Positions 25,360-63,471 of a DNA stretch of 64,000 bases are shown here, piece after piece. Under the pieces are notes generated by a model. That model was not told where the DNA came from. It saw nothing but the letters and a program-made list of their open reading frames with translations, and searched no databases. Source of the stretch: Thiobacter sp. AK1 (GTDB lineage: Bacteria > Pseudomonadota > Gammaproteobacteria > Burkholderiales > Thiobacteraceae). Location: contig NZ_JBAJEX010000005.1 in NCBI RefSeq assembly GCF_039822265.1, positions 1 to 64,000 of the forward strand, read 5' to 3'. The first letter of the stretch is position 1; every line of letters begins with the position of its first letter. A program made the translations under genes and the position numbers.

Positions 25360-26664
25360 TCAGGGCTGTGGCTTTTGCCCGCGCGGTACGTCAGGCAGCT
25401 GCTTCGGCGCGTGGTCATGCTCGTCGGGATCGATGGCCCAAAGGCGGTGGGCATCCAGAAGGAGCCGGTAGCGCGCCTCATTGGCCTCGAGGGTTGCGAG
25501 GCTTGCAGCCAGCCGCGCCTCGAGGGCGAGCCGGCGCGCAGTCAATACACCGGACAGGCCGCCTTCGCCCAAGGCATAGGCGCGAGCGGCCAGCGCCGCC
25601 GCCGCTTCCATTTCCCGCGCCGCCGAGGCCTGGGCCATCGCCGCGGCATACGCCGCCTGCGCGCCATGAAACAGGTTCTCGGCTTCCGCGGCGAGCTTGG
25701 CCGCAACCACAGCCTCGCGCTGAGCGGCCATGTCGGCTTCGGCGCGGCTTGCGTCCACTGCCGCGGCGCGCGCCGCACCGCCCAAGGGAACGGTCAGTGT
25801 CAGGCCAATGATGTGCTCCTCGCCGCCCCGCTCCCGCGCGGCGCGCACACCCACGGTGGGATCGGGTATACGCTCGGCCTCGGCCCGCGTCAGCGCCAGG
25901 CGCGCCCGCCGCGTTTCCGCCTGGGCGGCAGCCAGCTCATGGTTGTGGGCAAGCACCTCCTCGCGCCAGTACGCGCCATCGAATTCCACCGGGCGCGGTT
26001 GCGCGATCTGCACGGCATCCGGCAGGGTGAGGCCGGGGAAACGACGCATGAGTTCGGTGGCCGCTGCCTGCGCTCGGAAGCGGGCCTGGGCGCGATTGGC
26101 CTCGGCCTGGGCGAGGGCCGCCTGCGCCGCAAGGCGTTCCAGGCGAGGGGCATCGCCGGCGTGGATGCGCTTGTCCACCGCCACGAGTTGTTGTTGCAAC
26201 AAAGCCACCTGTTCCTCCCAGAGCGCGGCTTGGCTGCGCTCCTTGAGCCAGGCGAACCAACCTTTGAGCAAGCTCCGCGCCGCCTCGTGTAGCGCATCGC
26301 CCAGCGCCAGCCGGGCCTGGGTCACGCCTTGCTCGCCCAGGGCCCCATCCAACGCGGCCTTACCCGGCAGCCGTAGCGTCCGCTCCACAGCCAGGTCCCA
26401 CTCCCTGTATTGCGCGGTGGGCGCGGCACGCACATCCCGCTCTTGCCCCGTGACGCGCACCACGGTTTCGTGCGGTCCGGCAAGAAGACGTTTGCGGGTG
26501 GCTTCCTGCATGCCAATGCCGGCGCGGGCCGCCACCACACTCGGCACCCGCTCCAGCACTTGGCGCACCACCGACGGCGGCGGCAAATCGGGCACAGCCA
26601 ACTCCTCGGCGGCGTGGGCGGTGGCGACGATAAGCGTGAGCGACAGCAGGCACGCGCGTTTCAT
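25360..26664 (-). CDS. czcC: Heavy-metal efflux outer membrane protein, CzcC/TolC family
   Basis: 434 aa with a signal peptide (1-18). Two outer-membrane-efflux repeats rich in long Ala/Glu/Arg helices follow, as expected for a TolC-like tunnel. No lipobox. It forms the outer membrane channel of the tripartite RND pump encoded by the next genes upstream. The ATG at 26664 has GGAGG-like spacing and overlaps the DUF3240 stop by four bases. It is the last gene of the operon, an unusual position for czcC, which often comes first. Confidence 0.87.
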   Translation of the reverse strand: MKRACLLSLTLIVATAHAAEELAVPDLPPPSVVRQVLERVPSVVAARAGIGMQEATRKRLLAGPHETVVRVTGQERDVRAAPTAQYREWDLAVERTLRLPGKAALDGALGEQGVTQARLALGDALHEAARSLLKGWFAWLKERSQAALWEEQVALLQQQLVAVDKRIHAGDAPRLERLAAQAALAQAEANRAQARFRAQAAATELMRRFPGLTLPDAVQIAQPRPVEFDGAYWREEVLAHNHELAAAQAETRRARLALTRAEAERIPDPTVGVRAARERGGEEHIIGLTLTVPLGGAARAAAVDASRAEADMAAQREAVVAAKLAAEAENLFHGAQAAYAAAMAQASAAREMEAAAALAARAYALGEGGLSGVLTARRLALEARLAASLATLEANEARYRLLLDAHRLWAIDPDEHDHAPKQLPDVPRGQKPQP

Positions 26665-26963
26665 GCCAGCCTCCCGAAACCAGACACCGGCATGGTCCAC
26701 CAGGCGATCTCTGGACTAACGAGGCTCTCGCGCAGGTGTGCAAGCAAAGCATCGGCCTTGTCGCGCTCGGTGACGATTTGCACCATCACGCGCACCACGC
26801 GACCACGCACCTGCTCGGCGCTGCCGCGGTACACCACCCCTCGACCGTGACCGTCTACCACCTGGGTCGTGAATCCTGGCACCCATTCCGGATGTTCCAG
26901 CAAGTGGTCTACCAGGGCCTCCTCCAGGCTGCGGGGCAGGACGATGGTGAGACAAGTCATCAT
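26661..26963 (-). CDS. DUF3240 family small protein of metal RND operons
   Basis: 100 aa, soluble: MMTCLTIVLPRSLEEALVDH at the N-terminus, then VPGFTTQVVDGHG and VMVQIVTERDKADALLAHL. This pattern looks like a ferredoxin/PII-like fold, and DUF3240 proteins are found beside CzcA/CusA genes. Both ends overlap neighbours by four bases (ATGA with czcA, ATGA with czcC), so it is translated as part of the operon. A regulatory or metal-sensing role is inferred. The start may be either of two consecutive ATGs (26963 or 26960). Confidence 0.82.
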   Translation of the reverse strand: MMTCLTIVLPRSLEEALVDHLLEHPEWVPGFTTQVVDGHGRGVVYRGSAEQVRGRVVRVMVQIVTERDKADALLAHLRESLVSPEIAWWTMPVSGFGRLA

Positions 26964-29900
26964 GTCACGCGCTCCTTGGCGGATTCGACGCCGAAACGGG
27001 AGAAGAGGATGGGAAGCAGCACGAGGGTGAGTAGCGTGGAGGTGACCAGACCGCCAATGACCACGATGGCGAGCGGACGTTGGATCTCCGATCCGGGCCC
27101 GGTGGCAAACAGCAGCGGGACCAGGCCGAAGGCGGCGATGGAGGCCGTCATCAGCACGGGTCGCAGGCGACGCTGGGCGCCTTCCACCACGGCCTGCGCC
27201 AGGCTCATGCCCTGGGCGAGCAACTGGTTGAAATGACTCACCATCACCACGCCATTGAGCACCGCGATGCCAAGCAGTGCGATGAAGCCAACCGAAGCTG
27301 GCACCGAGAGATACTCCCCGGAGATCCAGAGGGCGCACACACCACCGATCATGGCGAAGGGAATGTTGGTGAGGACCAAAAGCGCCTGCCGCACGGAGCG
27401 GAAGGTGGCAAACAACAGGAGGAAGATGAGCAACAGCGCCACCGGCACGACGATGGATAGACGCGCCGCGGCACGCTGCTGGTTTTCGAACTGGCCGCCC
27501 CATTCGAGACGATAGCCAGCAGGCAGCGGCACACGTGCCGCCACCGCCGCCCTGGCATCGGTCACGAAGCCCACCAAATCCCGCCCGCGCACGTTAGACT
27601 GGATCACCGCCATGCGCGCCGCGTTTTCGTGTTCGATTTTCACCGGCCCATCCGTGCGGCGAATGTGCGCCACGGCGGAAAGCGGCACCTGGCCTGCCGG
27701 TGTCACCAGCTGCACGCGAGCGAGGGCATCCGCTCCCCGACGCAGGGCATCGTCACCACGCAGCAAAAGCGGCGTACGCCGGCCCGGTTCCACCACCACG
27801 CCCAGTATGCGGCCTTCCACCAGGGCACGCAGCGCGTTCTGGATGTCTTCCACGTTGAAACCCAGGCGCCCAGCCGCGAGGCGGTCGATATCGATTTGCA
27901 GATACTGCACCCCCTCGTTCTTTACCGTATAGACGTCCTGGCTGCCCGGCACCTGACGCAGCACCTGCTCGATTCTGCGCGCCAGTCCATCCAGGGTGGC
28001 GGCGTCCGGCCCGAACACCTTCACCGCCACGTCACCCCGCACGCCGGTGAGCATCTCTGACACCCGCATCTCGATGGGCTGCGTGAAATTCACCGCCACG
28101 CCCGGGAACGCTGCCATCACCTTGCGCAACTCATCGGTAAGCCATTCCTTGTCCGGCTTGCGCCACTCGTTGCGGGGTTTGAGCACGAGGAAGCTGTCGG
28201 TGTCGTTGAAACCCATGGGATCGAGCCCCAGCTCGTCGGAACCGGTGCGGGCGACGATGCCCCGCACTTCCGGCACCCGCGCGAGCACCGCCCGCTGCAC
28301 GGCGAGATCCAGGCGTGTGGACTCCTCTAGGCTAATGGAAGGCAGTTTCACCAGCTGCATGATGATGTCGCCCTCGTCCATGGTTGGCATGAAGGTTTTG
28401 CCGATGCGGGTGTACACGATGGCCGTGGCCGCGAGGAGGACCAGCGCCACCACCACGACCTGTTTCTGGTGGGCCAGTGCCCACGCCAATAGCGGCCGGT
28501 ACAGGGCAGACAGTTTGCGTGGTAGCCAGGGCTCGCCATGGCCCACGTGGGTGAGCAAAAACGACGAAGCCACCGGAATCACGGTGAGCGCGAGCAGCAA
28601 CGACGCGGACAGGGCGAACACGATCGCGAGCGCCACCGGGATGAACAGCTTGCCTTCCAATCCCTGTAGCGTGAGCAGCGGCAGGAAGACGATGACGATG
28701 ATGGCAATACCGGAGGCGACCGGGACGGCCACCTCACGCACCGCGCGATAGACGACATGGAGATGCGGCACGGGGCTTTCCGCACGGCGCTGGGCGAGAT
28801 GGGTCACTATGTTTTCCACCACTACCACCGCCGCATCCACCAGCATGCCTATGGCGATGGCCAGCCCGCCCAGACTCATGAGATTGGCCGACATGCCCGA
28901 AAGACGCATGAGGATGAAGGTGGCCAGGGCCGCCAGGGGCAATGTCAAGGCCACCACCAGCGCCGCGCGCAGATTGCCCAGAAACAAAAGCAGCAGCACC
29001 AGAACCAGCACGATGGCCTCCGCCAGCGCGCGCGCCACCGTGCCCACCGCTCGTTCCACCAGGTGGCCACGGTCGTAGAACACTTCGATTCTCACCCCGG
29101 GAGGCAGGCTTCTTTCGATTTCTTTGAGCTTGGCGCGCACACCCTGCACCACCTGCCGCGCATTGGCACCACGCAGGCCTAGTACCAGGCCTTGCGCGGC
29201 CTGGCCGCGTCCATCGCGGGTCACAGCGCCATAACGAGTGAGGCTACCCACCCGCACCGTGGCCACATCGCCCACCCGCACGACTTGGCCGTCGCGTCGC
29301 GTCACCACGATGGCCGCAAGATCTGCGAGGGTGCGCACCGCGCCCTCCGCGCGCACCACCAGCACTTCCTCGCCATCGTGGAGACGCCCGGCGCCGTCGT
29401 TGCGATTGTTGTTGACAAGCGCCGCTTCCAGCTCGGCCATGCTCACGCCCCGTGCCGAAAGCCGGACCGGATCCACCGCCACCTCGAAGGCGCGGGCGTA
29501 GCCCCCCAAGGTGTTGACGTCCGCCACACCAGGCAGGGTGCGCAACTGCGGACGGATCACCCATTCCAGCAGGCTGCGCCGCGCTTCGAGGCTCAGCCCC
29601 CCGCCCTCCACGGTAAACATGAACATCTCGCCCAGCGGCGTGGTGATAGGCGCAAGCCCCCCGCCCACACCCGGCGGCAGCGCGCCCAGAATGCCGTTTA
29701 GACGTTCCGCCACCTGCTGGCGCGCCCAGTAGATGTCGGTGCCGTCCTCGAAGTCGATGGTGATGTCCGCCAGCCCATACTTGGACACCGAGCGCAGCAC
29801 GCGTTGATGGGGAATACCCAGCATCTCCAGCTCGATGGGTGTCGTGATGCGCGCCTCCACTTCCTCCGGCGTCATGCCCGGCGCCTTCATTACCAGCTTC

Positions 29901-30040
29901 ACCTGGGTCGTGGAGACATCGGGAAAGGCGTCGATGGGCAGGTCGCGGAACGCGATCACGCCCGCCCCCACCAACAGCAAGGTGAGCACCCCCACAAGCA
30001 GACGCTGGCTGAGCGCGAATTCGGTGAGGCGGCCAAGCAT
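26960..30040 (-). CDS. czcA: Heavy-metal efflux RND transporter, CzcA/CusA family
   Basis: 1026-aa inner membrane proton-driven pump. TM1 is near 14-31, with DFEDGTDIYWARQQVAERL in the porter domain. The TM4 motif GMLVDAAVVVVEN sits at 398-410 (Asp402, Glu409). The Czc (Co/Zn/Cd) type typically has DFG before DGA in TM4, while this DAA form resembles the CusA-like pattern, so the metal is uncertain. Flanked by the adaptor gene (3 bp upstream) and DUF3240, giving the order B-A-DUF3240-C. Confidence 0.93.
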   Translation of the reverse strand: MLGRLTEFALSQRLLVGVLTLLLVGAGVIAFRDLPIDAFPDVSTTQVKLVMKAPGMTPEEVEARITTPIELEMLGIPHQRVLRSVSKYGLADITIDFEDGTDIYWARQQVAERLNGILGALPPGVGGGLAPITTPLGEMFMFTVEGGGLSLEARRSLLEWVIRPQLRTLPGVADVNTLGGYARAFEVAVDPVRLSARGVSMAELEAALVNNNRNDGAGRLHDGEEVLVVRAEGAVRTLADLAAIVVTRRDGQVVRVGDVATVRVGSLTRYGAVTRDGRGQAAQGLVLGLRGANARQVVQGVRAKLKEIERSLPPGVRIEVFYDRGHLVERAVGTVARALAEAIVLVLVLLLLFLGNLRAALVVALTLPLAALATFILMRLSGMSANLMSLGGLAIAIGMLVDAAVVVVENIVTHLAQRRAESPVPHLHVVYRAVREVAVPVASGIAIIVIVFLPLLTLQGLEGKLFIPVALAIVFALSASLLLALTVIPVASSFLLTHVGHGEPWLPRKLSALYRPLLAWALAHQKQVVVVALVLLAATAIVYTRIGKTFMPTMDEGDIIMQLVKLPSISLEESTRLDLAVQRAVLARVPEVRGIVARTGSDELGLDPMGFNDTDSFLVLKPRNEWRKPDKEWLTDELRKVMAAFPGVAVNFTQPIEMRVSEMLTGVRGDVAVKVFGPDAATLDGLARRIEQVLRQVPGSQDVYTVKNEGVQYLQIDIDRLAAGRLGFNVEDIQNALRALVEGRILGVVVEPGRRTPLLLRGDDALRRGADALARVQLVTPAGQVPLSAVAHIRRTDGPVKIEHENAARMAVIQSNVRGRDLVGFVTDARAAVAARVPLPAGYRLEWGGQFENQQRAAARLSIVVPVALLLIFLLLFATFRSVRQALLVLTNIPFAMIGGVCALWISGEYLSVPASVGFIALLGIAVLNGVVMVSHFNQLLAQGMSLAQAVVEGAQRRLRPVLMTASIAAFGLVPLLFATGPGSEIQRPLAIVVIGGLVTSTLLTLVLLPILFSRFGVESAKERVT

Positions 30041-30043
30041 GCG

Positions 30044-31147
30044 TCAGTCCTGGCCCACACCCGTAACCATGGCCTTCAGCGCCGCCACGCCCTTGACCGC
30101 GACTTGCGCCTGATCCGGCAAATTGCCGCTCACCACCACTTGCCCAGCCTCTTCCTCCAGCAGCGTGACCGGCATCATGGCAAAGCCTCCACGTGTCTTA
30201 ACGAAGACATGAGCCCGTCCCTGATGGCGTGCCACCGCCGCCGCTGGCAGTCGCCAGGCCCGCCCCGCTGCCGCGCTTTCCACGCGTGCCTCGACGAACT
30301 GACCGGGACGCAAGGCGCCAAGCCCAGTCGTCAGCTCCGCGCGCACCGGCAGCGATTGGCTGGCAGCGTCCATGCTCGCGCCCACCGCCACCACCCGTCC
30401 GCGCGCACCGTCCACGCTCACCCGCGCACCGGGGCGAATCGCCAATCCATCCGCCAAGCCTGCCTGCAACTCGATCCACAGGGGTGCCAAGCGCGCGATC
30501 CGGAACAGGGGCGTGTTGGCCTCCACCCGCTGCCCCGGCTGAACCAGCTGCTCCAGCACCACCCCCGCGGCGGGTGCAACGAGGTTAAGCGTGCCCGACA
30601 GGCCGCGCGCAGCCGTCAAGGCGGCGATGGCCGCCTCACTCATGCCGTACAGGCGCAACACCTGACGCCGCTCCGCATAAGCCGCCTGTGCCTGGGCGTG
30701 GGCCGCTTGCGCAGCCAAAAGCCGCCCCTCGGCGATGATGCCTTCGCGATGGAGAGCCTCCTCGCGACGCAAGGTCGTCTCCGCCAGGCCTAACTGGCTT
30801 GCCGCCTGCAGGTACTCGCGCTGTGCTTCAAGCAGCATGGGACTTGCCAGTACGGCCAGAGGCGTCCCCGCGCTCACCGTCTGCTGGGCCGCCACACGCA
30901 CTTGCTCCACCAACCCCGCCACGGGCGCGGCGACGACCCGGATCTGGGAAGGCGGGATGGTCACGCGGCCAGGCAGCAGGCGCACCGTCGCGGCCTGCGC
31001 AGCCGGCAACGCCTGGGTCACCACCCCCAGCGACTGCATCTGGGCCGGGGTAAGGGAAACCGCCAGCGGCGGCTCGGCCGCAGCCGCGGCAACAGGCAAG
31101 GCGAAGAGGAAGAAGACGACCATGCAAGAGACCCGGGCGACCCACAT
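30044..31147 (-). CDS. czcB: Efflux RND periplasmic adaptor subunit, CzcB family
   Basis: 367 aa with an N-terminal signal (about 1-23, ending AAAAA-EPP). Membrane-fusion features are present: a lipoyl-like half (GLVEQVRVAAQQTVSAGTPL), an alpha-helical hairpin at about 105-165, the second lipoyl half (VAPAAGVVLEQLVQPGQRV), a beta-barrel and a membrane-proximal domain. It links the inner-membrane pump to the outer channel. First gene of the leftward operon; no metal-responsive regulator is encoded nearby. Confidence 0.9.
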   Translation of the reverse strand: MWVARVSCMVVFFLFALPVAAAAAEPPLAVSLTPAQMQSLGVVTQALPAAQAATVRLLPGRVTIPPSQIRVVAAPVAGLVEQVRVAAQQTVSAGTPLAVLASPMLLEAQREYLQAASQLGLAETTLRREEALHREGIIAEGRLLAAQAAHAQAQAAYAERRQVLRLYGMSEAAIAALTAARGLSGTLNLVAPAAGVVLEQLVQPGQRVEANTPLFRIARLAPLWIELQAGLADGLAIRPGARVSVDGARGRVVAVGASMDAASQSLPVRAELTTGLGALRPGQFVEARVESAAAGRAWRLPAAAVARHQGRAHVFVKTRGGFAMMPVTLLEEEAGQVVVSGNLPDQAQVAVKGVAALKAMVTGVGQD

Positions 31148-34833: not shown

Positions 34834-35580
34834 TCACGGTAGCCGAATCACCGCAGGCGTGCCGGCCCGCAGGATGTCCTCAACCGGGAATACCACGTCG
34901 ATCGCATACTCGCCCTTGGGCCCTACCGGCTCCAATCCCACCAGCCGCACGCGGCCCGGATAGCGGCGTCCCTCCACTTCTACCTCCACCGCTTGTCCCG
35001 GCTTGAGCGTCCTGACCTCGGGCAGTGCCACCAGCCCGCGCGCCACCATCTCACCCGTCCGCGCCAGCACGATGAGAGGCTCCGGCTTCAATTGGCTGGC
35101 CACTGCCTGCCCGGGTTCCACCTGACGCTTGAGCACGACACCGTCGAAGGGTGCGCGCACTGTGGTATCCCTAAGCTGCTTGTTAAGCGCGGCCAGACGC
35201 GCACGCGCTGCCGTAAGCTGCGCCTGGGCGCGGGCATGGCGTAACTGCGCCGCCTCCAGCTCGGTGGCCGCGATCACAGTGCGGTTGTAGAGCTCCTGTA
35301 CGCGATCTAGGTTCCGTTTGGCATCCTTTTCTTCCTCCTGGGCCTGAGCAACACTGGCCTGACCCTCGGCCACCTGCGCGCTGAAGGCCGTGGCGTCCAG
35401 GCTTACGAGCACCTGGCCCTTCTTTACCCGGTCACCAGGCTTAACCGCGACCGTTTGCACGATGCCGGAGACGGCCGTGCCCAGTTCCACACGCTGCGCC
35501 CAGTGTAGGCTTGCCGCCAGATCCGCGGCCCAGACCGGCACGGCGAAAAGCCCAAGCAGCCAAAAGGAATGCTTGATCAC
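34834..35580 (-). CDS. HlyD/RND-type periplasmic adaptor protein
   Basis: 248 aa, short for an adaptor. Signal peptide 1-18 (VWA-AD). Lipoyl halves are GIVQTVAVKPGDRVKKGQVL and VRAPFDGVVLKRQVEPGQAV, with a helical hairpin between (about 70-135) and a small beta domain at the end. It overlaps the TolC-like gene by four bases. No inner-membrane pump gene is adjacent, so the partner transporter must be elsewhere or the protein works with another system. Confidence 0.87.
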   Translation of the reverse strand: MIKHSFWLLGLFAVPVWAADLAASLHWAQRVELGTAVSGIVQTVAVKPGDRVKKGQVLVSLDATAFSAQVAEGQASVAQAQEEEKDAKRNLDRVQELYNRTVIAATELEAAQLRHARAQAQLTAARARLAALNKQLRDTTVRAPFDGVVLKRQVEPGQAVASQLKPEPLIVLARTGEMVARGLVALPEVRTLKPGQAVEVEVEGRRYPGRVRLVGLEPVGPKGEYAIDVVFPVEDILRAGTPAVIRLP

Positions 35581-36890
35581 GGTTGTGCTCCTTTGCTCTG
35601 TGCGAGTTGGGCAAGGGGACGGCCCACCAGGGCCTCGATCTTGGCCAGCGCCAGGGCGAGGCGATATTCCACGCTGCGGCTAGCGAGCTTGGCCTCCATG
35701 GTCTTGGCCATGGAATCGCCCAGGTTGGTGCGATATTCCATTTCGTACTGGCCGCGCGCGCGCTCCAGGGCGAGATCGCGAAAATCAGCCTCCACCTTGG
35801 CGGCGCGCCTGGCAATGCGGCGCAAATGGTCAGCATCCAACCAAGCCGCGAGCAAGGCCTGAGTGAGATCCCGCTTGAGCTGCTCACGCTCCGCCTGCAG
35901 CTTCTGGAACTGTGCCTGTTCCCGCGCCAGCGCAGCAGACACCGTGCGCCCCTGGTAGAAGGGCCAGGAGAGCACCACGCCCGCGCGCACCTGATCACGG
36001 CCACTCAAGGGACGCTGGGCATAGTCGGCAAGCTCCAGCTCCGCGTCTAGGCGCGGGTTGCGTTCGGCGCGAATGGCCTCCAGGCGCTGTTGCGACGCAG
36101 CCAGCAACTGCTGCTGGGCCTTGAGGCGTGGATTGTTCTCCAGCATGGCGGCAACCAGCACCTCATAATCAGGTAGGGGACGCTCGTTATCCGGCAGCGC
36201 CGGGTCCTCCAGTTCGGAGGGTAACTCGCCCGGCCGGTTCATGGCATCGGCGAGTAGCGCCCGCGCAAGACGCTGGCGCTTTTCGCTCTCCGCGCGGCGT
36301 ACGAGCCACGCCTGGGAACGCGCCTCCAGTTCGGCCACGTCCACCTGGGAGAGAAGCTTCTGCTCGGCGCGATCGCGCGCCTGATCGAAGGCCACATAGG
36401 CGACTGCCAGATATTCGTTGTCCACCGTATAGCGCAGATCGGCCAGCAACACGTCGAAGTAGCGGGCCATGATGTCCAGCCGGCGCTGGTCGCGCCGATC
36501 CATCAGGCCGAGCTCACGCGCCTCCAGCGTAAGACGGGCGGCTTCCTCGCCGCGCTGCGTGCGCCCGAAATCCCATAGGTTCTTGCGCGCCACCAGGCGG
36601 ACGCTATTGTCCGAGATGAAATCAGTGTCGGTTGCACGCAACGCAGGCTGCACCCGCTGCAGGCGGCCTTCCAGAGTCAGGCTGGCGTCACTGCGCGTCC
36701 CTGCCAACTCGAGCTCGGCCGCCGCCAGGGAACGCTCGGCCCGTGCGGCTTCCAGTTCGGGATGGGGGGCATCGGCGGCCTTGAGCGCTTCGGCCAAGGT
36801 GAGCACTCCGCCTTGCGCGGCCACAGTGGCTGTCTCAAACAGACAACACAGGGCCGCCAGCATGCCCAGACCATGTAGGACGAACCTCAT
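35577..36890 (-). CDS. TolC family outer membrane efflux protein
   Basis: 437 aa with a signal peptide (about 1-25). Two OEP repeats of long amphipathic helices rich in Arg, Glu and Ala. Both ends overlap neighbours by four bases (thioredoxin gene upstream, adaptor gene downstream), so all belong to one operon. Outer membrane channel; substrate unknown. Confidence 0.88.
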   Translation of the reverse strand: MRFVLHGLGMLAALCCLFETATVAAQGGVLTLAEALKAADAPHPELEAARAERSLAAAELELAGTRSDASLTLEGRLQRVQPALRATDTDFISDNSVRLVARKNLWDFGRTQRGEEAARLTLEARELGLMDRRDQRRLDIMARYFDVLLADLRYTVDNEYLAVAYVAFDQARDRAEQKLLSQVDVAELEARSQAWLVRRAESEKRQRLARALLADAMNRPGELPSELEDPALPDNERPLPDYEVLVAAMLENNPRLKAQQQLLAASQQRLEAIRAERNPRLDAELELADYAQRPLSGRDQVRAGVVLSWPFYQGRTVSAALAREQAQFQKLQAEREQLKRDLTQALLAAWLDADHLRRIARRAAKVEADFRDLALERARGQYEMEYRTNLGDSMAKTMEAKLASRSVEYRLALALAKIEALVGRPLAQLAQSKGAQP

Positions 36891-37405
36891 TGTGCGGCGG
36901 CCTGGGTCTTGTACACGTTGAATGGGGTGGTCTTGTAAAGGCCTTCCACCACGTAGCGGCCCAAGAGCAGGAATTCCTTGGGGTCCTTGGCCACGCCGGT
37001 GAAACGGTACATGGGATTGCCATCGAGATCGAAGAACAGGAACACCGGCGTGGCGCGCACGCGGTTTTCAGCCGCGAATGCCTTTTCTGTGGTCTGCTTG
37101 CCTTTGAAGTCCACCATGGCCAGCTCGTTCTTGATGTCGATGGAGTAGATCAGAAAGTGCTTCTTGAAGTAGTCCTGCACTTCGCTCTGATTGAGGATGG
37201 TCTCCTTCATGCGATGGCACCAGGGACAGTCCTCCTGCTCGAACATGAGCAGGATGCCCTTCTTGCCCTCCGCCCGGGCAGTGGCCAGCTCGGCTTTGAA
37301 ATCGCCCAACTTTTGGTCGAAGAAATACTGATTCACGTCCCGCTTCTCGGCGAGCGTCGCGAAACTGACCAGCATCAGGCCGGCGAAGAAAAGCGCGCGC
37401 AGCAT
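36887..37405 (-). CDS. SoxW-like periplasmic thioredoxin
   Basis: 172 aa with a signal peptide (1-19). Redox motif CPWC at 60-63 in FEQEDCPWCHRMKETIL, followed by TPVFLFFDLDGN with the cis-proline. The Cys-Pro-Trp-Cys and length match the SoxW group of thioredoxin-like proteins associated with sulfur-oxidising bacteria. The start at 37405 has an AGGAG site; the longer frame lacks support. It lies between the TlpA-like gene and tolC. Probably keeps a periplasmic thiol reduced, but the partner is unknown. Confidence 0.87.
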   Translation of the reverse strand: MLRALFFAGLMLVSFATLAEKRDVNQYFFDQKLGDFKAELATARAEGKKGILLMFEQEDCPWCHRMKETILNQSEVQDYFKKHFLIYSIDIKNELAMVDFKGKQTTEKAFAAENRVRATPVFLFFDLDGNPMYRFTGVAKDPKEFLLLGRYVVEGLYKTTPFNVYKTQAAAQ

Positions 37406-37430
37406 GGGTGTCTCCTCTTGTCGTGGGCGC

Positions 37431-37892
37431 CTATTTTTTTGCCGGCGCCGATTTGCGGGCAATGTAGCTTTCCACCGCGGCGCGTGTCAACGCGCCCACA
37501 TTGTAGGCGGCGAGCCGGCCTTCGGGATCGTATAAATAGGTGGTGGGCAGGCCTTGCACCTGACCGATCTGACCGGCGATCTGGGGGTTACCCAGAACGA
37601 TGGGGAAGGTCACGAACAAATCGTCGGCAAATTTCTTCACGTATTCCGGATCGCGCCAGTCCATGGCAATGCCGATCACCACCAAATCCTTGCGGGTCTC
37701 GTGCAGTTTCTGCAGATCCGGCATTTCCTCGAGACAAGGTGGACACCAGGTGGCCCAGAAGTTGACCAGCACCCATTTGCCCCGGTAATCGGCGAGGCGA
37801 TGAGTTTTGCCCTGGGTATCGGTCAGGGTGAAGGCCGAACTCGCGAGGGGCGCAAGTCCCAGCAAAAGAACGGCAAGGAGACGTCGCAACAT
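37431..37892 (-). CDS. TlpA/ResA-like thiol-disulfide oxidoreductase
   Basis: 153 aa with a signal peptide (1-20). Thioredoxin fold with CPPC at 50-53 (NFWATWCPPCLEEMP) and GLPTTYLYDPEGR with the cis-Pro. The Cys-Pro-Pro-Cys site and AhpC/TSA-like front end suit reduction of apocytochrome c or a related thiol. First gene of the operon TlpA - SoxW-like - TolC - HlyD-like; 25 bp separate it from the next gene. Divergent from the aspartase/fumarase gene. Confidence 0.9.
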   Translation of the reverse strand: MLRRLLAVLLLGLAPLASSAFTLTDTQGKTHRLADYRGKWVLVNFWATWCPPCLEEMPDLQKLHETRKDLVVIGIAMDWRDPEYVKKFADDLFVTFPIVLGNPQIAGQIGQVQGLPTTYLYDPEGRLAAYNVGALTRAAVESYIARKSAPAKK

Positions 37893-39416: not shown

Positions 39417-40301
39417 CTAACGCGCCTTGGTGTGCCCGGGCGCATTGGCGCTCATGCCGGGTGCGGCACCGGCGGCATGGGTGAGTCCAACGGGGGTCAT
39501 CGGGGCTTTGCTACCACCTTGTCCGCCCCCCATGGGTGCGCCCTCGGCCTTGGCCACGTGACTGTCCGGCTTAAGCTCGCGCGTGCCATAGACCACGCCG
39601 CCGCCACTTGCCGCCGTGGTAATGCCTTTTCCGTAAGCATGGCGGTGGCTGCTCGCCTGCTCGACCTTGGCAGCGCGGGGAACAGCCACGGCGGCCGTCC
39701 TGCCAGCGGCGAAGTTGTGATTGGCAGCCTTCATGCTGCTCACGACAGGACCCAGCTTGAAGCCATTGGCCTGGGCGATTTGCCCCCAGCCCATGCCGGC
39801 GGCGCGCTGGTTGAGGATACCCTCCAGGGTGACGGTCTGGGTGCTCACCGTGCCGTCCGGTGCAACCTTGGTCACCGTGAAGCTGCCACCGGTGAGTGCG
39901 GCCTTCAGCACTTCTGGCGTGGGATCCGTGATGCCGTACTGGGCGAGCTGGGTCTTGGCCAGACTCAGGCTGATGTAGGTATTGCCATAGCCCATGGGCC
40001 GGGTGGGGGGCGTGATGGTTGTGGTCGTGGTGGTGCCGGCGGCCGAGACGCCGCTGAGGGTAATGGGCGTGCCGCTACGCAGGCCTGAGATCAGGGCCTC
40101 GGCGTTTTCCTGGGAGCCGGCAAATTGGGCGAAATCCCGGGCGAAGCGACTCGTCACCTCAGTCGCCGGTTGGCTTGAGGTGAGCTTGTCCGTCGTCGCA
40201 GCCTCGCGTTTAAGGTCCGCATCTGTCCCCGCCCAGGCATGACCCATGCCCATGAACAGCAGACCGAGGGCAATGTTTCGCATCACGTGACGTGTGACCA
40301 T
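39417..40301 (-). CDS. Secreted hypothetical protein, low-complexity C-terminus
   Basis: 294 aa with a signal peptide (about 1-24, HAWA-GT). Contains a Thr run (TTTTTTIT, about residue 88) and a middle segment with ISLSLAKTQLAQYGITDPTP and LNQRAAGMGWGQIAQANG. A Gly/His/Ala/Pro-rich tail has no hydrophobic core. I do not recognise a family. The ATG at 40301 has a GGAG site (AAAGGAGCC). Its stop is followed by REP-like repeats. The DUF3568 lipoprotein gene lies upstream on the same strand, 31 bp away; co-transcription is likely. Confidence 0.75.
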   Translation of the reverse strand: MVTRHVMRNIALGLLFMGMGHAWAGTDADLKREAATTDKLTSSQPATEVTSRFARDFAQFAGSQENAEALISGLRSGTPITLSGVSAAGTTTTTTITPPTRPMGYGNTYISLSLAKTQLAQYGITDPTPEVLKAALTGGSFTVTKVAPDGTVSTQTVTLEGILNQRAAGMGWGQIAQANGFKLGPVVSSMKAANHNFAAGRTAAVAVPRAAKVEQASSHRHAYGKGITTAASGGGVVYGTRELKPDSHVAKAEGAPMGGGQGGSKAPMTPVGLTHAAGAAPGMSANAPGHTKAR

Positions 40302-40332
40302 GGATGGCTCCTTTCGCGTGTTGCAGCCGGCG

Positions 40333-40728
40333 TCAGAGGAAACGCTCGGTCTGCATGATGATTTCGGTGGCCGTCGCACTGTCCTTGAACAGCCCTTGGG
40401 ACGCCGTGACCCGCATGCGGGTGGTGTTGGGGCTTAAGGCTTCCAGCTCGATGTCGATGTCGCGATCGGCCGCCTTGGCCTTGATCGCCTCGCCATTATC
40501 GATCTTGGATGTCTGAGCGACCTTGATCTGCATCCTATTGAGAGCCTTGAGGCTGGCCGTCTTCACCCTGGGCAGGGGCTCGGCGAAGGTGCGGTAGGTG
40601 ATCCCGCTCAAGGTGTGGGATACCCCCGCCGAGGCGCCCACCCCCAAAGCCGTCAAGGCGGCGGCCTCGCAGCCGCCCAAAATCAAGGCAGCCGAGCCGA
40701 TCAGGGCCAGGTTGCGTATGGGCTTCAT
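40333..40728 (-). CDS. DUF3568 lipoprotein
   Basis: 131 aa. Lipoprotein signal with lipobox LGGC (Cys20), then LTALGVGASAGVSHTLSGIT, a short hydrophobic stretch. The rest is a small alpha/beta domain (TASLKALNRMQIKVAQ and DIDIELEALSPNTTRMRV). This pattern belongs to DUF3568, a family seen mainly in beta- and deltaproteobacteria. Function unknown. Divergent from the next gene, with 117 bp between starts. Confidence 0.85.
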   Translation of the reverse strand: MKPIRNLALIGSAALILGGCEAAALTALGVGASAGVSHTLSGITYRTFAEPLPRVKTASLKALNRMQIKVAQTSKIDNGEAIKAKAADRDIDIELEALSPNTTRMRVTASQGLFKDSATATEIIMQTERFL

Positions 40729-54970: not shown

Positions 54971-55136
54971 AGTTCTCGTGATCCCGGCGGTTTTTGCCCC
55001 ATCCGCCGCCCGGTTTCCCTTGTCATGCCTGGCAACGTGAACTACGTTTATGGAGCCTTAGCTCCACCCCCACGCGCCCCATGGGTGCTGGGGCTTGGGC
55101 AGGGCATCATCGCACAACCATAAACGGAGGACGACA
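54971..55136 (+). promoter_or_regulatory. Upstream region of sorA
   Basis: Two small inverted repeats: AACGT-GAACT-ACGTT (55034-55048) and TGGAGC-CTTA-GCTCCA (55051-55066), about 70-100 bp before the sorA start. Possible operator sites; no clear promoter boxes. A strong GGAGG at 55126-55130 serves the GTG start. Confidence 0.35.
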
Positions 55137-56390
55137 GTGGACCAGGATTCTGAGATGAAAGCGAAACCCGGGTGGGATCCCTCCCGCCGGCGTTTTCTTC
55201 GCGGTGGGGCCGCCTTGGGCGGCCTCGCGCTATTTGGACGCAGCGCGTTGAGCGCGGCGGCTGAAAAAACCATCGAGCTACCGATGGTCAATGGTCGGCG
55301 TGAGCTGGCGACCTACCCGCAGAAACGTGAGCTCATCCTCATGACCGCGCGGCCGGTGCAGTTGGAAACGCCGATGTCCGTGTTCAACGAAGGCGTGTTC
55401 ACGCCCAACGACGCCTTCTTCGTGCGCTGGCATTTGGCCGATGTGCCCACCACCGTGGATGCGGCGACGTTTCGCATCAAGGTACACGGTCTGGTCAAAC
55501 AGCCCCTCAGCCTGAGCGTGGAGGATCTCAAAAACAATTTCGAGCAGGTGGAACTCGCCGCCGTCTGCCAATGTTCCGGAAACAGCCGTGGCCTGTTCAA
55601 CCCGCGCGTGCCGGGTGGTCAATGGGCCAACGGTGCCATGGGCAACGCGCTGTGGAAAGGCGTGCGCCTGCGCGACATCCTCAACAAGGCCGGCATCCAA
55701 GCCGGTGCGGTGCAGGTGCGTTTCGATGGCGCCGATGGCCCCGTGCTGCCCGCCACGCCAGACTTCATCAAGGCCCTGGACATGGACATCGCCCTGGGCG
55801 AGGACGTGATCGTGGCCTACGCCATGAACGGCGAGCCGCTGCCCTTGCTCAACGGCTATCCGGTGCGGCTGGTGGTGCCCGGCTGGTATGCCACCTACTG
55901 GGTGAAGATGCTCAACGACGTGGAAGTGATCGGCAAGGTGGACGAGAATTTCTGGATGAAGCCCGCCTACCGCATCCCGGACAATCCCTGCGCCTGCATG
56001 GAGCCGGGGCAGCAAGGGGTGAAAATGGTGCCCATCAACCGCATGAACGTGCGCTCCTTCATCACCAGTGTGGCCGACGGTGCCAGGATCAAGGGTGGAC
56101 ACACCTACGAAGTCAAGGGCATCGCCTTCGACGGGGGCTTTGGCATTGCCCGCGTGCTGTTCTCGGCGGATGGCGGCAAGACCTGGACCGAGACGCGCCT
56201 GGGCAAGGATCATGGCAAATACAGCTTCCGCGAATGGCGCGCCGCCTTCACTCCCAAGCGCGGCCAACACTACGAGCTGGCGTGCCTGGCGATCAACACC
56301 ATCGGCGAGTCGCAGCGCTTCACGCCGCGCTGGAATCCTGCCGGCTACATGCGCAATGTCGTCGAAACCGTGCGGGTCACCGCCGTCTGA
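55137..56390 (+). CDS. sorA: Sulfite dehydrogenase molybdopterin subunit, SorA-like
   Basis: Periplasmic molybdenum enzyme oxidising sulfite to sulfate, passing electrons to SorB/cytochrome c. 417 aa from the GTG at 55137, supported by a well-spaced GGAGG. Twin-arginine signal RRRFLRGGAALGG at 17-29. Catalytic residues expected from Starkeya SorA are visible: Arg and His in FVRWHLADVP, the Mo-ligand Cys146 in CQCSGNSRG, and Tyr in GWYATYWVK. A C-terminal Mo-co dimerisation domain follows (about 310-417). sorB is 13 bp downstream. SoxC is an alternative within the same superfamily, but no sox genes are near. Confidence 0.9.
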   Translation: MDQDSEMKAKPGWDPSRRRFLRGGAALGGLALFGRSALSAAAEKTIELPMVNGRRELATYPQKRELILMTARPVQLETPMSVFNEGVFTPNDAFFVRWHLADVPTTVDAATFRIKVHGLVKQPLSLSVEDLKNNFEQVELAAVCQCSGNSRGLFNPRVPGGQWANGAMGNALWKGVRLRDILNKAGIQAGAVQVRFDGADGPVLPATPDFIKALDMDIALGEDVIVAYAMNGEPLPLLNGYPVRLVVPGWYATYWVKMLNDVEVIGKVDENFWMKPAYRIPDNPCACMEPGQQGVKMVPINRMNVRSFITSVADGARIKGGHTYEVKGIAFDGGFGIARVLFSADGGKTWTETRLGKDHGKYSFREWRAAFTPKRGQHYELACLAINTIGESQRFTPRWNPAGYMRNVVETVRVTAV

Positions 56391-56403
56391 GGGGGAAGCG
56401 AAC

Positions 56404-56733
56404 ATGAACAAACGACTGCGCCTCATCCTCGTCATGGCCGGCATGCTCACGGCGAGCACAGGCCAAGTCCTCGCCGCACCATCGGCGACCGAAGCCAAGA
56501 TCACCCTGCCGCCGGAGCAGGCCCGCTTCAAACCCGGGCCGGGCATGGAAACGGCTGCCCGCAACTGCATGATCTGTCACTCCGTCGATTACATCTACAT
56601 GCAGCCGCCTCTGACGCGGGAACAGTGGCATGCCGAAGTCGTGAAGATGAAAAAGGTGTTCGGCGCACCCATACCGGACAATGAGGTGGACACGGTGGTC
56701 GACTACCTGATGTCGCAAAACGGCAAGAAATGA
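56404..56733 (+). CDS. sorB: Sulfite dehydrogenase cytochrome c subunit, SorB-like
   Basis: 109 aa with a signal peptide (about 1-25). One heme site CMICH at 55-59 (AARNCMICHSVDYIY), and a later Met (MSQNGKK or YMQPP) as possible axial ligand. A small monoheme cytochrome directly behind a SorA-type subunit is the hallmark of sulfite:cytochrome c oxidoreductase. The stop converges with the gene at 56780. Confidence 0.9.
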   Translation: MNKRLRLILVMAGMLTASTGQVLAAPSATEAKITLPPEQARFKPGPGMETAARNCMICHSVDYIYMQPPLTREQWHAEVVKMKKVFGAPIPDNEVDTVVDYLMSQNGKK

Positions 56734-56779
56734 GCCGCCCCGGCGCGGCGGATGGGTGCCTCGCCGCCGCGCCGCCCCC

Positions 56780-57598
56780 TCACCGCGCCGGCTCACTGAC
56801 GCGCGGCTGCCACTCGTCCAGCGTCCAGTAGCGCAGGAAGCTTCGCCCTTGCCGCTGGATCTTTTCCGGGCCCCGCCCCGCGCCGTCGATGATGCGGCGC
56901 AGAATCGCGTCATCCATGAGCCGACGGCCTTCGCGAAACGGAATGGTGGAAAGTTCGATGCGCCAGGGATGCGCGCCATCGCGCCGGCCGAAGGACAGCT
57001 CGAAATCCAGCACGGCGATGAGCTGCGCCCGCGTGAAGTTCTTGAGCTCCGCCAGCATGGCCAGCGATTCCGCACGCTGGGTGGCCACGAAGCGGTCGCG
57101 CACATAGGCGAAATGCGGCCCAACCACCAGCAGATAGCCGCGACATTGGTCGCCGTGGGCTACGCCCACTTCCACGTCGTGGAAGCGCAGCCCCACCACC
57201 CCGCCCTCGGGGCCGGCGAGACGTTCCCACACCGCGGTTTCCCGACCGTCCAGGCAGAATTCCCGCAGCACCGCCCCCTCGGCTCGCATGCGGCGCAGGA
57301 AAGCTTGCCCGCGCTGGGGCAGGTAGTCGAGCTGGCGGCGGCGGTGCAGGACGTCTTCCGCGGCGATACACGCGCCCGCTACACCGCCCTGGTGGGCGAG
57401 CACCATCAGCTCCTCATCGCTGAACTGTTCCCAAGAAGCCCGCCCGGAGAAATCCGGCCGGTCGGCAGGAATGTCGATCATGGCGTGCAGGCGCGTGGTC
57501 TGCAGCCACAGGCTGTGGGTATCGGCGGTGCGCTTGCGCCAGGCGCCCAGGTAGGCGGCGGGAACGTCGGTGTTGTTGGGGGGCAGCGTGATGGCCAT
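56780..57598 (-). CDS. Conserved-looking hypothetical protein
   Basis: 272 aa from the ATG at 57598 (MAITLPPNN), soluble, no signal or TM. Features: TDTHSLWLQTTRLHAMIDIP-like front end, DYLPQRGQAFLRRMRAEGA and GGVVGLRFHDVEVGVAHGDQ. I cannot place it in a family; it looks like a lipocalin- or Heme-binding-like beta-rich protein, but this is speculation. It lies 4 bp downstream of the AEC transporter stop and shares its strand, so it is probably co-transcribed. Confidence 0.7.
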   Translation of the reverse strand: MAITLPPNNTDVPAAYLGAWRKRTADTHSLWLQTTRLHAMIDIPADRPDFSGRASWEQFSDEELMVLAHQGGVAGACIAAEDVLHRRRQLDYLPQRGQAFLRRMRAEGAVLREFCLDGRETAVWERLAGPEGGVVGLRFHDVEVGVAHGDQCRGYLLVVGPHFAYVRDRFVATQRAESLAMLAELKNFTRAQLIAVLDFELSFGRRDGAHPWRIELSTIPFREGRRLMDDAILRRIIDGAGRGPEKIQRQGRSFLRYWTLDEWQPRVSEPAR

Positions 57599-57602
57599 GA
57601 TC

Positions 57603-58481
57603 TCAGGACAGGGCAAAAGCCAATACTACCGGCATCACCGCCAGCGACGCCAGATTGCCCAGCAGGACGATGGACGCCACCTTCTCCGGCTCCTGCCGGT
57701 ACTGTTCCGCCATCAGGTAGTTGAGCACCGCCGGCGGCAGCGCACCGAACACCAGCAGCATGGATTGCTGCTGGGGCGTGAGGGGAAGCAGGGGCGCCAC
57801 CAGGCCCACCATGAGGACGCCCGTGGCCGGCGCGACGATGCCGCTCACCGCGCCGAGCCGCCAGTCCCGGAAGGAGACCTGATTGAGCCTCACCCCCAAT
57901 GCGAACAAGAGCATGGGGATGGAGGCATCCCCCACCATCTTGATGGCGGTGTAAAGGGGCACAGGCACCGCCGCGCCACTGAAACTCACCGCCACGCCCA
58001 AGACGGTGGCCGCCATCACCGGTGTCTTGAGCAATGCCAGCGGATGCAGGCGATGGGCGAGTAGGTAAGGGCCCAGGGAGAAGTGCAGAATCATCTCCAC
58101 CAGGAACAAGACGATGGCCGCACCCAAAGCCTGCTCGCCGAAGGCCAAGACCAGGAGGGGGATGCCCATGTTGCCCGAGTTGTTGAACATCATGGGCGGC
58201 ACGAAAGTCTTGCCATCCACCCCCATGAGGCGCGCCACCGGCCAGGCCAGAAGGCCCGAACCCAGGATCACCGCCACACCGCCCACGGCCAGCGGCCAGT
58301 AGTGGGCGAAATCGAAGGACTTTGAGGCCAGCGCAGCGAACACCAGGGCCGGCACCAGCACGTCCATGCTGATCTGGTTGGTGACCTGGATGTCCGGCCG
58401 CTTGACGCGCCCATACCACCAGCCCAGGCCGATGACGGCGAACACGGGAAAGACGATGGAAAAAATGCGCAGGGCCAGCAT
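57603..58481 (-). CDS. AEC family transporter (auxin-efflux-carrier fold)
   Basis: 292 aa, about ten TM helices in two inverted halves. MFNNSGNMGIPLLVLAFGEQA in the first half and GALPPAVLNYLMAEQYRQEPE in the second match AEC/MdcF-type permeases. The substrate may be an organic acid; undetermined. ATG at 58481. Between SQR and the hypothetical gene, all leftward. Confidence 0.88.
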   Translation of the reverse strand: MLALRIFSIVFPVFAVIGLGWWYGRVKRPDIQVTNQISMDVLVPALVFAALASKSFDFAHYWPLAVGGVAVILGSGLLAWPVARLMGVDGKTFVPPMMFNNSGNMGIPLLVLAFGEQALGAAIVLFLVEMILHFSLGPYLLAHRLHPLALLKTPVMAATVLGVAVSFSGAAVPVPLYTAIKMVGDASIPMLLFALGVRLNQVSFRDWRLGAVSGIVAPATGVLMVGLVAPLLPLTPQQQSMLLVFGALPPAVLNYLMAEQYRQEPEKVASIVLLGNLASLAVMPVVLAFALS

Positions 58482-58519
58482 CCGCGCATTTTACGGGACA
58501 CCGGGACCGGCCCAGGGTG

Positions 58520-59791
58520 CTATTTCAGGCGCTGGATGCCCAAGGCCTTGAGCATGTATTTTTCGTAGATGGGTTCGGAATTGCCGGTCTTCATCTTGCG
58601 CAGGAAATACTTCTCGAAGGCCGCCTTGGCCAGGTGCACCCATTTGCCCTGCTTGGCCCAGGTCACGTTGCGCGGCGGGATCTGGGGAATCGCCACGAAG
58701 GCCGCGCCCGTGTCGCCCATGTCGGCCAGGCAAATGGTGCTCCAGGTGCCGGTATGGGTGGGCGGCAGGCCCGCCAGCTCATCGGCGATGTTGTGGGCGA
58801 TGGCCGAGACCATGGACTCGATCATGTAGCCGGTCTTGGGTGTGCCGGTGGGCACCGGCGTCACCTCCACCGGAGGAATGGCGATTCCCACGCCCGCGGC
58901 GTAGATGTTGGGATAGCGGGGGCTGCGCTGCTGTTCGTCCACGACCACGAAGCCCGCGGCGTTGGTGAGGCCTACCACCTGCGCCACCGCCTCCACGCCG
59001 CGGAAGGCGGGCAGCATCATGGCGTATTTGAAGTCCAGCACCTGCTCGCGGATCTTCTCACCGAGGTCGTTGTATTCCTCGATGTGCATGCGGTTGGGCT
59101 CCACCGCCGTCACCTTGGCGTGGGTGATCCACTTGATGTGGCGCTGGCGCATTTCCGCTTCCAATAGCCCCTTGGAGTCCCCTACTCCGCCCAGCCCCAT
59201 GTGGCCCACGTAAGGTTCGGGCGTGACGTAGGTGATGGGCACCTTGTGGCGCAGCTTGCGCCGGCGCAGGTCGGTCTCCAGCGCCATGGCGTATTCGTAG
59301 GCCGGCCCGAAGCAGGAAGCGCCGGGCAGGGCGCCCACGATGACCGGGCCCGGGTCCTCGAGGAAGGCTTGATAGGCGCCATAGGCGCGCTCCGCATGGG
59401 CCAGGGTGCATACGGAATGGGTGTGGCCGGTCTCGGGGCCGGCACCGGGCGTGAGCTCGAAGGCCAGGCGCGGCCCGGTGGTGAGCACCAGATAGTCGTA
59501 GTCCACCGTGCCGCCATCGGCCAGGGTGAGGCGCTGGGCGGTGGGGTCGATATGCTCCACGCGGCGGGCGATGAACTCGATGCCCTTCTTTTCCAGGTAG
59601 GGACGTAGGGGAAAGCTCACATGACTGGCATCGCGCCAGCCCAGGGCCACCCAGGGATTGGAAGGCACGAACTGGAAGTGCTCGTGGGCATTGATGAGGG
59701 TGACGCGATGCGCCTTACCCAGCAGGGCGCGGATCTCGTAGGCGGCCGGTGTGCCGCCAGTGCCCGCGCCGATGATGACGATATGGGCCAT
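58520..59791 (-). CDS. sqr: Sulfide:quinone oxidoreductase
   Basis: 423-aa peripheral membrane flavoprotein that oxidises sulfide to sulfane sulfur and reduces quinone. FAD-binding IVIIGAGTGGTPAAYEI at the N-terminus. The three cysteines expected of SQR are present: Cys128 (HSVCTLA), Cys160 (PGASCFGPAYEY) and Cys354 (TICLADMGD), close to the positions in Acidithiobacillus SQR. A C-terminal amphipathic region (WVHLAKAAFEKYFLRKM) is likely the membrane anchor. The start at 59791 (MAHIVIIGAG) fits the Rossmann motif. The gene upstream encodes a small conserved protein 35 bp away. Confidence 0.92.
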   Translation of the reverse strand: MAHIVIIGAGTGGTPAAYEIRALLGKAHRVTLINAHEHFQFVPSNPWVALGWRDASHVSFPLRPYLEKKGIEFIARRVEHIDPTAQRLTLADGGTVDYDYLVLTTGPRLAFELTPGAGPETGHTHSVCTLAHAERAYGAYQAFLEDPGPVIVGALPGASCFGPAYEYAMALETDLRRRKLRHKVPITYVTPEPYVGHMGLGGVGDSKGLLEAEMRQRHIKWITHAKVTAVEPNRMHIEEYNDLGEKIREQVLDFKYAMMLPAFRGVEAVAQVVGLTNAAGFVVVDEQQRSPRYPNIYAAGVGIAIPPVEVTPVPTGTPKTGYMIESMVSAIAHNIADELAGLPPTHTGTWSTICLADMGDTGAAFVAIPQIPPRNVTWAKQGKWVHLAKAAFEKYFLRKMKTGNSEPIYEKYMLKALGIQRLK

Positions 59792-59826
59792 GTGGGTTCC
59801 TGGTCGGGAGTCGTTGCGAAAAAAGC

Positions 59827-60219
59827 TCACGCGGCCCGGCGCAAGCCCTGCACCCAAGCCTCCATGGCCGCATTGGCAGGCGGCATGGGTGCTTCCATGA
59901 AGCTCACCACGAATTTGCTGCCCAAGTCCGCCACGCCGATGGCGCGCGGCCGCACGGCCAACACCTGGGGATTGGGCAGGGCGAAGCCAAAGCAGAAGAT
60001 GACGTCCACCGCTGCCTTGATCTCCGGGTTGATCTCGCCGCCGATGCCTTGGGTATGGGCGTAGTGGTCGAACACGCCGATGAACTGCACCTTGGGGTTT
60101 TCCGCGATCTTCTGCTTGAGATAGGCCACCACCTCGTCGACGCTCTGGGCCGCTGTCTCGCTCTTGTCGATCTCGGCGACATAGACGGGGTATTTTTCCT
60201 GCAACAGGGTGTGCTTCAT
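59827..60219 (-). CDS. Small conserved protein (resembles DUF6858 family)
   Basis: 130 aa, soluble. Conserved-looking motifs: KYPVYVAEIDKSET, IGVFDHYAHTQGI, VIFCFGFALPNPQVLAVRP and FMEAPMPPANAAMEAWVQGL. I recall similar proteins under the name DUF6858 in sulfur-using bacteria, but cannot confirm it here. No metal or redox site is obvious apart from one Cys and two His. Starts at 60219; SQR follows 35 bp downstream, so a link to sulfide metabolism is inferred. Confidence 0.72.
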   Translation of the reverse strand: MKHTLLQEKYPVYVAEIDKSETAAQSVDEVVAYLKQKIAENPKVQFIGVFDHYAHTQGIGGEINPEIKAAVDVIFCFGFALPNPQVLAVRPRAIGVADLGSKFVVSFMEAPMPPANAAMEAWVQGLRRAA

Positions 60220-60262
60220 GAATGTCTCCTGGACATGAAAGGAAGTGGAATGCTTCGATGCT

Positions 60263-60283
60263 GCCGTTCCTACTCGGAACGGC
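60263..60283 (-). terminator. Hairpin directly after the truncated hemoglobin stop
   Basis: Perfect 8-bp stem GCCGTTCC / GGAACGGC with a 5-base loop, one base after the globin stop (60284-60286). No U-tract follows on the leftward strand. It may end the cyd operon, protect its 3' end, or attenuate into the downstream genes. Confidence 0.45.
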
Positions 60284-60766
60284 CTAAACCTGCCCCACGC
60301 CGCCGTGGCGCGGCCTGGGGTCGGCATGCGGGTTAGGCGGGAAGGGGGGATGATCGCAGGATTGCCGACCCTCGCCCTGGTTGCGCAGGTGTTCCGCCAG
60401 TTCGGCAAAGCGCATCTCGAGGGCGCGCCGCAGGCTCACGTCGGCGACCGTCTCTTCCAGGGCGAGGCGCATGCACAAAAGCCACTCGTCACGCGCTTGC
60501 GGACCGATGGCATAGGGCAGGTGACGCCGCCGCAGCATGGGATGCCCGTGCTTTTCCAGGTAGCGCGGCGGCCCGCCCAGCCAGCCCGAGAGAAAATCGA
60601 ACAGCTTCTCCGCCGAGCCGCTCAGGTCGGCGGGATGGAGCTTCCGCGCGGCATAGGCTTCCGGCAGGGTGTCCATGAGGGTATAGAAGCGCGTCACCAG
60701 GCGGCGCAGCCCCGCATCCCCGCCGATGCGCTCATAGGGAGAAGAAACATCCGGTTTCGTGTGCAT
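60284..60766 (-). CDS. Group II truncated hemoglobin
   Basis: 160 aa. YERIGGDAGLRRLVTRFYTLMD opens the globin. LSGWLGGPPRYLEKHGHPML leads to the F-helix region and the proximal His in RRRHLPYAIG, and RDEWLLCM is typical of group II (TrHbO/YjbI). A 30-residue Pro/His-rich C-terminal extension is extra. It could bind O2 or NO. Three bases from the YbgE-like gene, so it belongs to the cyd operon. Confidence 0.9.
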   Translation of the reverse strand: MHTKPDVSSPYERIGGDAGLRRLVTRFYTLMDTLPEAYAARKLHPADLSGSAEKLFDFLSGWLGGPPRYLEKHGHPMLRRRHLPYAIGPQARDEWLLCMRLALEETVADVSLRRALEMRFAELAEHLRNQGEGRQSCDHPPFPPNPHADPRPRHGGVGQV

Positions 60767-60769
60767 GAA

Positions 60770-61048: not shown

Positions 61049-61050
61049 GG

Positions 61051-62306: not shown

Positions 62307-62321
62307 GGCGTTCTCCTTTGC

Positions 62322-63461: not shown

Positions 63462-63471
63462 GGTTTTCTCC

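Follow-up and report, generated by a model that had tools for sequence, protein, structure and literature searches.

Four genes lie on the minus strand at 34834-37892 of the window, the 64,000-nucleotide stretch of Thiobacter sp. AK1 DNA that was analysed. In the order of transcription they encode a TlpA/ResA-like periplasmic thiol-disulfide protein (37431..37892, 153 residues), a SoxW-like Thioredoxin_2 protein (36887..37405, 172 residues, with a CPWC motif), a TolC-like outer-membrane factor (35577..36890, 437 residues) and an HlyD-like periplasmic adaptor (34834..35580, 248 residues, with a GTG start). This leftward arrangement had been proposed in a first-pass annotation made from the sequence, and the Pfam and NCBIfam families agree with it: AhpC-TSA for the TlpA-like protein (1.6e-23), Thioredoxin_2 for the SoxW-like protein, OEP (PF02321) over two stretches of the TolC-like protein (1.8e-33), and TIGR01730 (6.5e-41) with HlyD_3/HlyD_D23 for the adaptor. 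The 4-bp overlaps that it had claimed among the last three genes are present at both the SoxW/TolC and the TolC/HlyD junctions. The gap between the TlpA-like and SoxW-like genes is 25 bp when the ATG at 37405, which is preceded by a purine-rich stretch, is used as the SoxW start; the mechanical open reading frame opens at a TTG at 37462. Each of the four products has a signal-like N-terminus and is without a second hydrophobic helix.

The TlpA-like protein has an AhpC-TSA/Redoxin fold with WCPPC, as in the TlpA/ResA group, is ResA-like by NCBIfam and matches ResA in the PDB (4nmu, 1.3e-21). Its N-terminus carries a hydrophobic stretch, as judged by a KD19 value of 2.12 rather than by a cleavage prediction. 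Both cysteines of the CxxC motif are kept in all 35 aligned relatives of the TlpA-like protein and in all 39 of the SoxW-like protein. The latter has the thioredoxin fold (Thioredoxin_2, 1.7e-18, scored on the longer open reading frame 36887-37462), the CxxC and the signal-like N-terminus of a SoxW-like protein, and its best PDB sequence match is 4fyb, a DsbC-named thiol-disulfide protein. The name given to it at first therefore holds as a statement of resemblance and of fold but not of identity, given that no SoxW-specific NCBIfam profile matches it. In 13 genomes, proteins of the cluster match it at E values of 1.1e-58 or better and other Thioredoxin_2 proteins at 1.8e-20 or worse, such that by sequence the two groups appear clearly separate. 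A DsbD-type membrane reductase is encoded in all 13 genomes tested. The likeness to the SoxW of the Sox system is that of a periplasmic-type thioredoxin in a sulfur oxidiser, but the operon gene lies outside the sox cluster, with soxB on contig C2 and the operon on contig C5 of genome G000. A second Thioredoxin_2-like open frame (G000:C9:38571-39401, 359 residues, with two tandem matches to SoxW) lies on the contig that carries dsrA, some 17 kb away from that gene.

Conservation of the cluster and its occurrence in sulfur oxidisers

The adaptor was searched for in 60 relatives, and the TolC-like protein was then searched for in 300 genomes of the order at E<=1e-40, of which 37, that of the window included, encode it. 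In all 37, the SoxW-like, TolC-like and HlyD-like genes lie in this order on one strand by tblastn, and in 34 the TlpA-like gene adjoins them, the exceptions being G044, G070 and G088. A search for the same gene order had been suggested as a check on the operon, and the operon passes it: because each of the 36 other TolC-bearing genomes shows the same order, in several different neighbourhoods, the cluster is kept together far beyond chance. It is found in eight families (f1, f15, f29, f35, f36, f44, f46 and f48), and its neighbours include fumC, a lytic transglycosylase gene and proS in some genomes and unrelated housekeeping genes in others. General synteny with fumC, proS and the lytic transglycosylase gene was rejected as the sole cause, given that several families keep the cluster without such neighbours.

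A set of 79 loci was assembled from the window, the 36 other genomes of the order, the loci L047 and L049, and 40 further loci of family f44, which we take to be the Thiobacillaceae; L045, L046 and L048 were omitted as duplicates of G007, G008 and G288. Of 111 TolC-bearing f44 genomes, 8 were already in the set, and the 40 were hand-picked from the remaining 103 for contig room. With starts picked by script, the SoxW-TolC junction overlaps by 4 or 1 bp at 69 of the 79 loci and the TolC-HlyD junction at 48, and the TlpA-like gene was not found beside the cluster at 6. Because only two of 398 genomes sampled across the phylum, that of the window and G052, have the TolC-like protein (E<=1e-25), the system is narrow. 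The five named cluster loci in a contig scan include Sulfuricella sp., Sulfuriferula multivorans and a Hydrogenophilales MAG. No publication on the operon or on a lipoyl-hairpin-only adaptor was found in a literature search that did not extend to bioRxiv or to most subscription papers.

Of the 300 genomes in the sample of the order, 142 have soxB and 64 have dsrA. All 37 operon-bearing genomes have soxB and 32 have dsrA (those without it are G056, G128, G166, G201 and G230), as compared with 105 and 32 of the remaining 263, with Fisher p values of 6e-14 for soxB and 3e-20 for dsrA from genomes that are related, so that the trials are not independent. The association with soxB is confounded by relatedness and disappears inside f44. 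The TolC-like protein is present in 111 of the 117 genomes of this family, soxB in 108 and dsrA in 106; soxB is kept in 5 of the 6 genomes without the TolC-like protein, and none was seen in 8 of the 111 with it. Three genomes of f35, which we take to be Sulfuriferula, are soxB-positive without this TolC (G043, G087 and G259). Because the soxB link vanishes in f44 and these f35 genomes are without the TolC-like protein, the operon marks sulfur-oxidiser lineages, yet not every sulfur oxidiser needs it. TolC/HlyD genes go up on elemental sulfur in a Sulfurovum transcriptome, according to the available portion of that study (PMC10045233); as support for a link to sulfur, this rise is suggestive only.

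Other genes near the operon were also read. The region 55095-63548 encodes a SorA-family sulfite dehydrogenase above the NCBIfam cut-off, two flavoproteins like sulfide:quinone reductases below that cut-off, a DUF6858 protein and, at 62322-63548, what reads as a cytochrome bd-like subunit. A 320-residue exported-looking protein with no Pfam match at E<=0.001 is encoded at 39417-40379 on the minus strand, and relatives of it occur at 8 of 9 f1 loci.

Full and short forms of the adaptor

The adaptor of the window consists of a signal-like N-terminus, a lipoyl domain, a hairpin and a beta-barrel, without a membrane-proximal domain, and TIGR01730 matches it over model positions 16-237 of 322. Full-form adaptors of about 243-262 residues are thus already without the membrane-proximal domain. 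At 34 of the 79 loci the adaptor is shorter still (163-181 residues), in that the beta-barrel is absent and the lipoyl domain and hairpin are left. The lipoyl-hairpin assignment comes from TIGR01730 and, for the short form, from a structural model and its VIA alignment. The AlphaFold2 model of a Sulfuriferula short form has a lipoyl domain and a hairpin (pLDDT 79, pTM 0.62, with the five models ranging from 56.7 to 79.3), and VIA-align superimposes it on residues 56-209 of AcrA with a Z of 16.5 and an rmsd of 2.0 over 154 aligned residues. The model of the window adaptor was poor (pLDDT 63, pTM 0.38) and was left out of fold searches. A second hydrophobic helix is absent from all six adaptors tested, full and short.

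Short adaptors are found in all five f35 loci, in UBA11351, in all seven g115 loci, in 20 of 21 loci of g97, presumably Thiobacillus, and in one g325 locus. By these assignments, they occur in Thiobacillus, Sulfuriferula and their kin, in at least four genera. The remaining g97 locus, L121, has a 204-residue adaptor with an odd, unrelated-looking tail. The short forms have lost an N-terminal strand together with the C-terminal part, as expected if a whole discontinuous barrel domain had been removed. For the 36 adaptors with 206 residues or fewer, a scan of the 2.5 kb downstream of the gene found no barrel-coding sequence (best E 0.011); the 36 include L121 and also L135, which runs off its contig, neither being a clean short form. 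An assembly fault was rejected as the source of the short adaptor, given that open frames recur at 34 of the 79 loci. In the TolC tree, where L121 was counted as short to give 35 short adaptors, the short form requires two changes, and a single origin may also be possible. Among 19 Thiobacillus sequences, with L121 omitted, the median dN/dS of the short adaptor is 0.206 (129 of 171 pairs with dS<1.2), and the same comparison gives 0.186 for TolC, 0.148 for SoxW and 0.153 for TlpA. By this low value, the short adaptor is a working gene under purifying selection.

The end of the adaptor that would meet TolC is retained. For the TolC-like protein itself, a search of PDB sequences at E<=0.01 gave no match. 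According to the accessible text of PMC3391258, a RxxxLxxxxxxS motif serves in adaptor docking on TolC, and some MacA activity is retained when Ala is substituted at the third, permissive site. In the alignment of 79 adaptors the Arg and Leu are invariant and the Ser is present in 63; the hairpin tip of the window adaptor reads R93-x3-L97-x6-A104 (35269..35304, minus strand), with Ala104 at the Ser position. The innermost residue of the gating ring of MacA is Gln209, as stated in the part of PMC5768738 that is available. A phmmer alignment to 5nik_D (offset +45) places Leu164 of the window adaptor at this site (codon at 35089..35091, minus strand), and of the 79 adaptors in this column 39 have Cys, 29 Leu, 8 Phe and 1 Ile, with 2 gaps. 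If the adaptor forms hexamers as MacA does, hydrophobic or cysteine side chains would line the gate as a ring, unlike the Gln209 of MacA. The gate cysteine is found only in f44, in all sampled genera except g115, and is absent from the window. At all 21 g97 loci (L102-L121 and L090) it stands in the lipoyl half in an ADCQP or AECQP sequence, and in the L102 adaptor it is residue 160.

The absent pump and a candidate exit duct

No inner-membrane transporter gene lies in the operon of the window. The first-pass annotation had called the pump missing here, which is correct for the operon but too narrow, given that the absence is not local: no pump adjoins the cluster anywhere examined, and at 39 loci the 9 kb around it contain no transporter gene that keeps a constant position. 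A LolD-like ATPase cluster, so named by a reading of the sequence, occurs at 6 of the 39 loci at scattered distances. RND pumps are encoded elsewhere in all 30 operon-bearing genomes examined. The RND set at 25360-31147 of the window (minus strand; adaptor at 30044-31147, CusA/CzcA-type permease at 26960-30040, OEP protein at 25360-26700) was rejected as the missing pump, given that it comes with an adaptor and an OEP protein of its own. When its permease and adaptor were searched for at 19 cluster loci, only L031, of the same genus, had the set, and a weak match at L044 (23%) was to a different RND-like gene.

What is missing also extends to the adaptor. In the RND and MacB assemblies treated in the accessible part of PMC8277102, lipoyl domains do not contact the transporter, unlike beta-barrels. 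Of the domains that contact transporters, the window adaptor has the barrel region and not the membrane-proximal domain, and the adaptors of 34 of the 79 loci are without the barrel as well, so that nothing is left of the regions through which known adaptors make contact with a pump. The absence of a pump, as read from these sequences, is mirrored in adaptor anatomy over many genera. The operon adaptor has in common with MacA and the AcrA/MexA-type adaptors, which work with TolC/OprM, a lipoyl and hairpin core, the RLS motif and an outer-membrane factor as partner; it differs from them in the missing membrane-proximal domain, the barrel loss and the absence of a pump from its operon.

We tentatively favour a reading, which we consider quite possible, in which the operon forms an exit duct from TolC and a minimal adaptor that gates it; this duct would be loaded from the periplasm, be coupled to thioredoxins and probably carry a sulfur cargo. 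The products would be a two-part duct, consisting of the TolC-like channel and a minimal adaptor cap, and two periplasmic thioredoxins. The hairpin tips of the adaptor would dock on TolC, and its lipoyl ring would form a hydrophobic or cysteine gate that opens to the periplasm and does not sit on a pump. The thioredoxins, for which DsbD is the probable reductant, would handle the cargo or maintain its reduced state, and the cargo leaving the periplasm would most likely be a sulfur compound of the Sox or Dsr pathways, such as a persulfide, polysulfide or thiol. We infer the absence of a pump from the working complex, the gate function, the cargo, its direction and DsbD as the reductant. Capping of TolC for a periplasmic cargo is suggested because the adaptor keeps its TolC end and loses its pump end and the operon never has a pump; a sulfur or thiol cargo is suggested by the thioredoxins and by the distribution among sulfur oxidisers. 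A more specific form, which we hold to be doubtful, is a duct free of any pump with a hexameric lipoyl-hairpin cap, whose hydrophobic or six-cysteine gate would pass sulfane sulfur, as persulfide or polysulfide, or a thiol out of the periplasm, and in which TlpA and SoxW would load the cargo or switch the gate via thiol exchange. The earlier idea of export or handling of a thiol, persulfide or metal-thiol compound survives in part: it is reasonable to link the operon to thiols or sulfane sulfur, because it is conserved and tracks sulfur oxidisers, but export of such a compound and a role for metals are conjecture.

Counting against the duct are the RND pumps encoded elsewhere, such that a partner in trans is possible, and the window adaptor, which keeps its barrel and has Ala104 at its tip. 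The confounding of the sulfur link by relatedness, the restriction of the gate cysteine to f44 and the 6 loci without an adjoining TlpA-like gene count against it as well. The same pumps and the same retained barrel keep open a somewhat unlikely alternative, that of ordinary tripartite efflux with an RND, MacB-like or MFS pump encoded elsewhere, an adaptor that is merely shortened, and thioredoxins that protect or mature the complex. Adaptors without a membrane-proximal domain are known, as reported for the MFS adaptor EmrA (PMC4158417). However, EmrA retains a barrel and a membrane helix and has a long hairpin, as far as the available part of PMC13328181 describes it, whereas the operon adaptor has a signal-like N-terminus, a short hairpin and no pump, and the six adaptors tested here are without the second helix. 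Ordinary tripartite efflux is also at variance with a pump that never adjoins the cluster and with the loss, without a downstream barrel gene, of the domain that contacts the transporter in studied systems.

That the thioredoxins serve envelope redox maintenance, in cytochrome c maturation or copper-thiol chemistry, with TolC-HlyD exporting by-products or metal complexes, would fit the closeness of TlpA to ResA-type proteins and the DsbC-named match of the SoxW-like protein. It is nevertheless improbable: cytochrome c maturation (ccm) is widely distributed, far more so than an operon found in two of 398 genomes across the phylum, and by eye the adaptor has no metal-binding motif, its gate being Leu, Phe, Ile or Cys. 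We regard as very improbable that the short adaptors are decaying remnants, with TolC and the thioredoxins kept for unrelated reasons; one locus, L093, does have a broken adaptor frame, but against decay stand the open short frames in at least four genera, the dN/dS value, the invariant Arg and Leu of the RLS motif and the gene overlaps that are kept.

If the more specific, pump-free form of the duct is correct, Thiobacillus and its relatives would have a redox-gated means of exporting zero-valent sulfur, or a thiol that mobilises sulfur, through their outer membrane. How zero-valent sulfur or mobilising thiols cross the outer membrane in sulfur oxidisers is, to our knowledge, an open question, for which the conserved operon offers defined genes. 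The parts of the operon belong to known families, and the new point is the reduction of the adaptor. An adaptor with the TolC-binding half alone would mean that TolC and its adaptor can function as a pair without a pump, a point of relevance to the evolution of tripartite exporters and to the role of an adaptor by itself. Another atypical adaptor with a domain missing is BesA of Borrelia, for which the loss is the opposite one: as reported in PMC3807786, BesA is without a hairpin, whereas the short form in the operon keeps the hairpin and loses the barrel.
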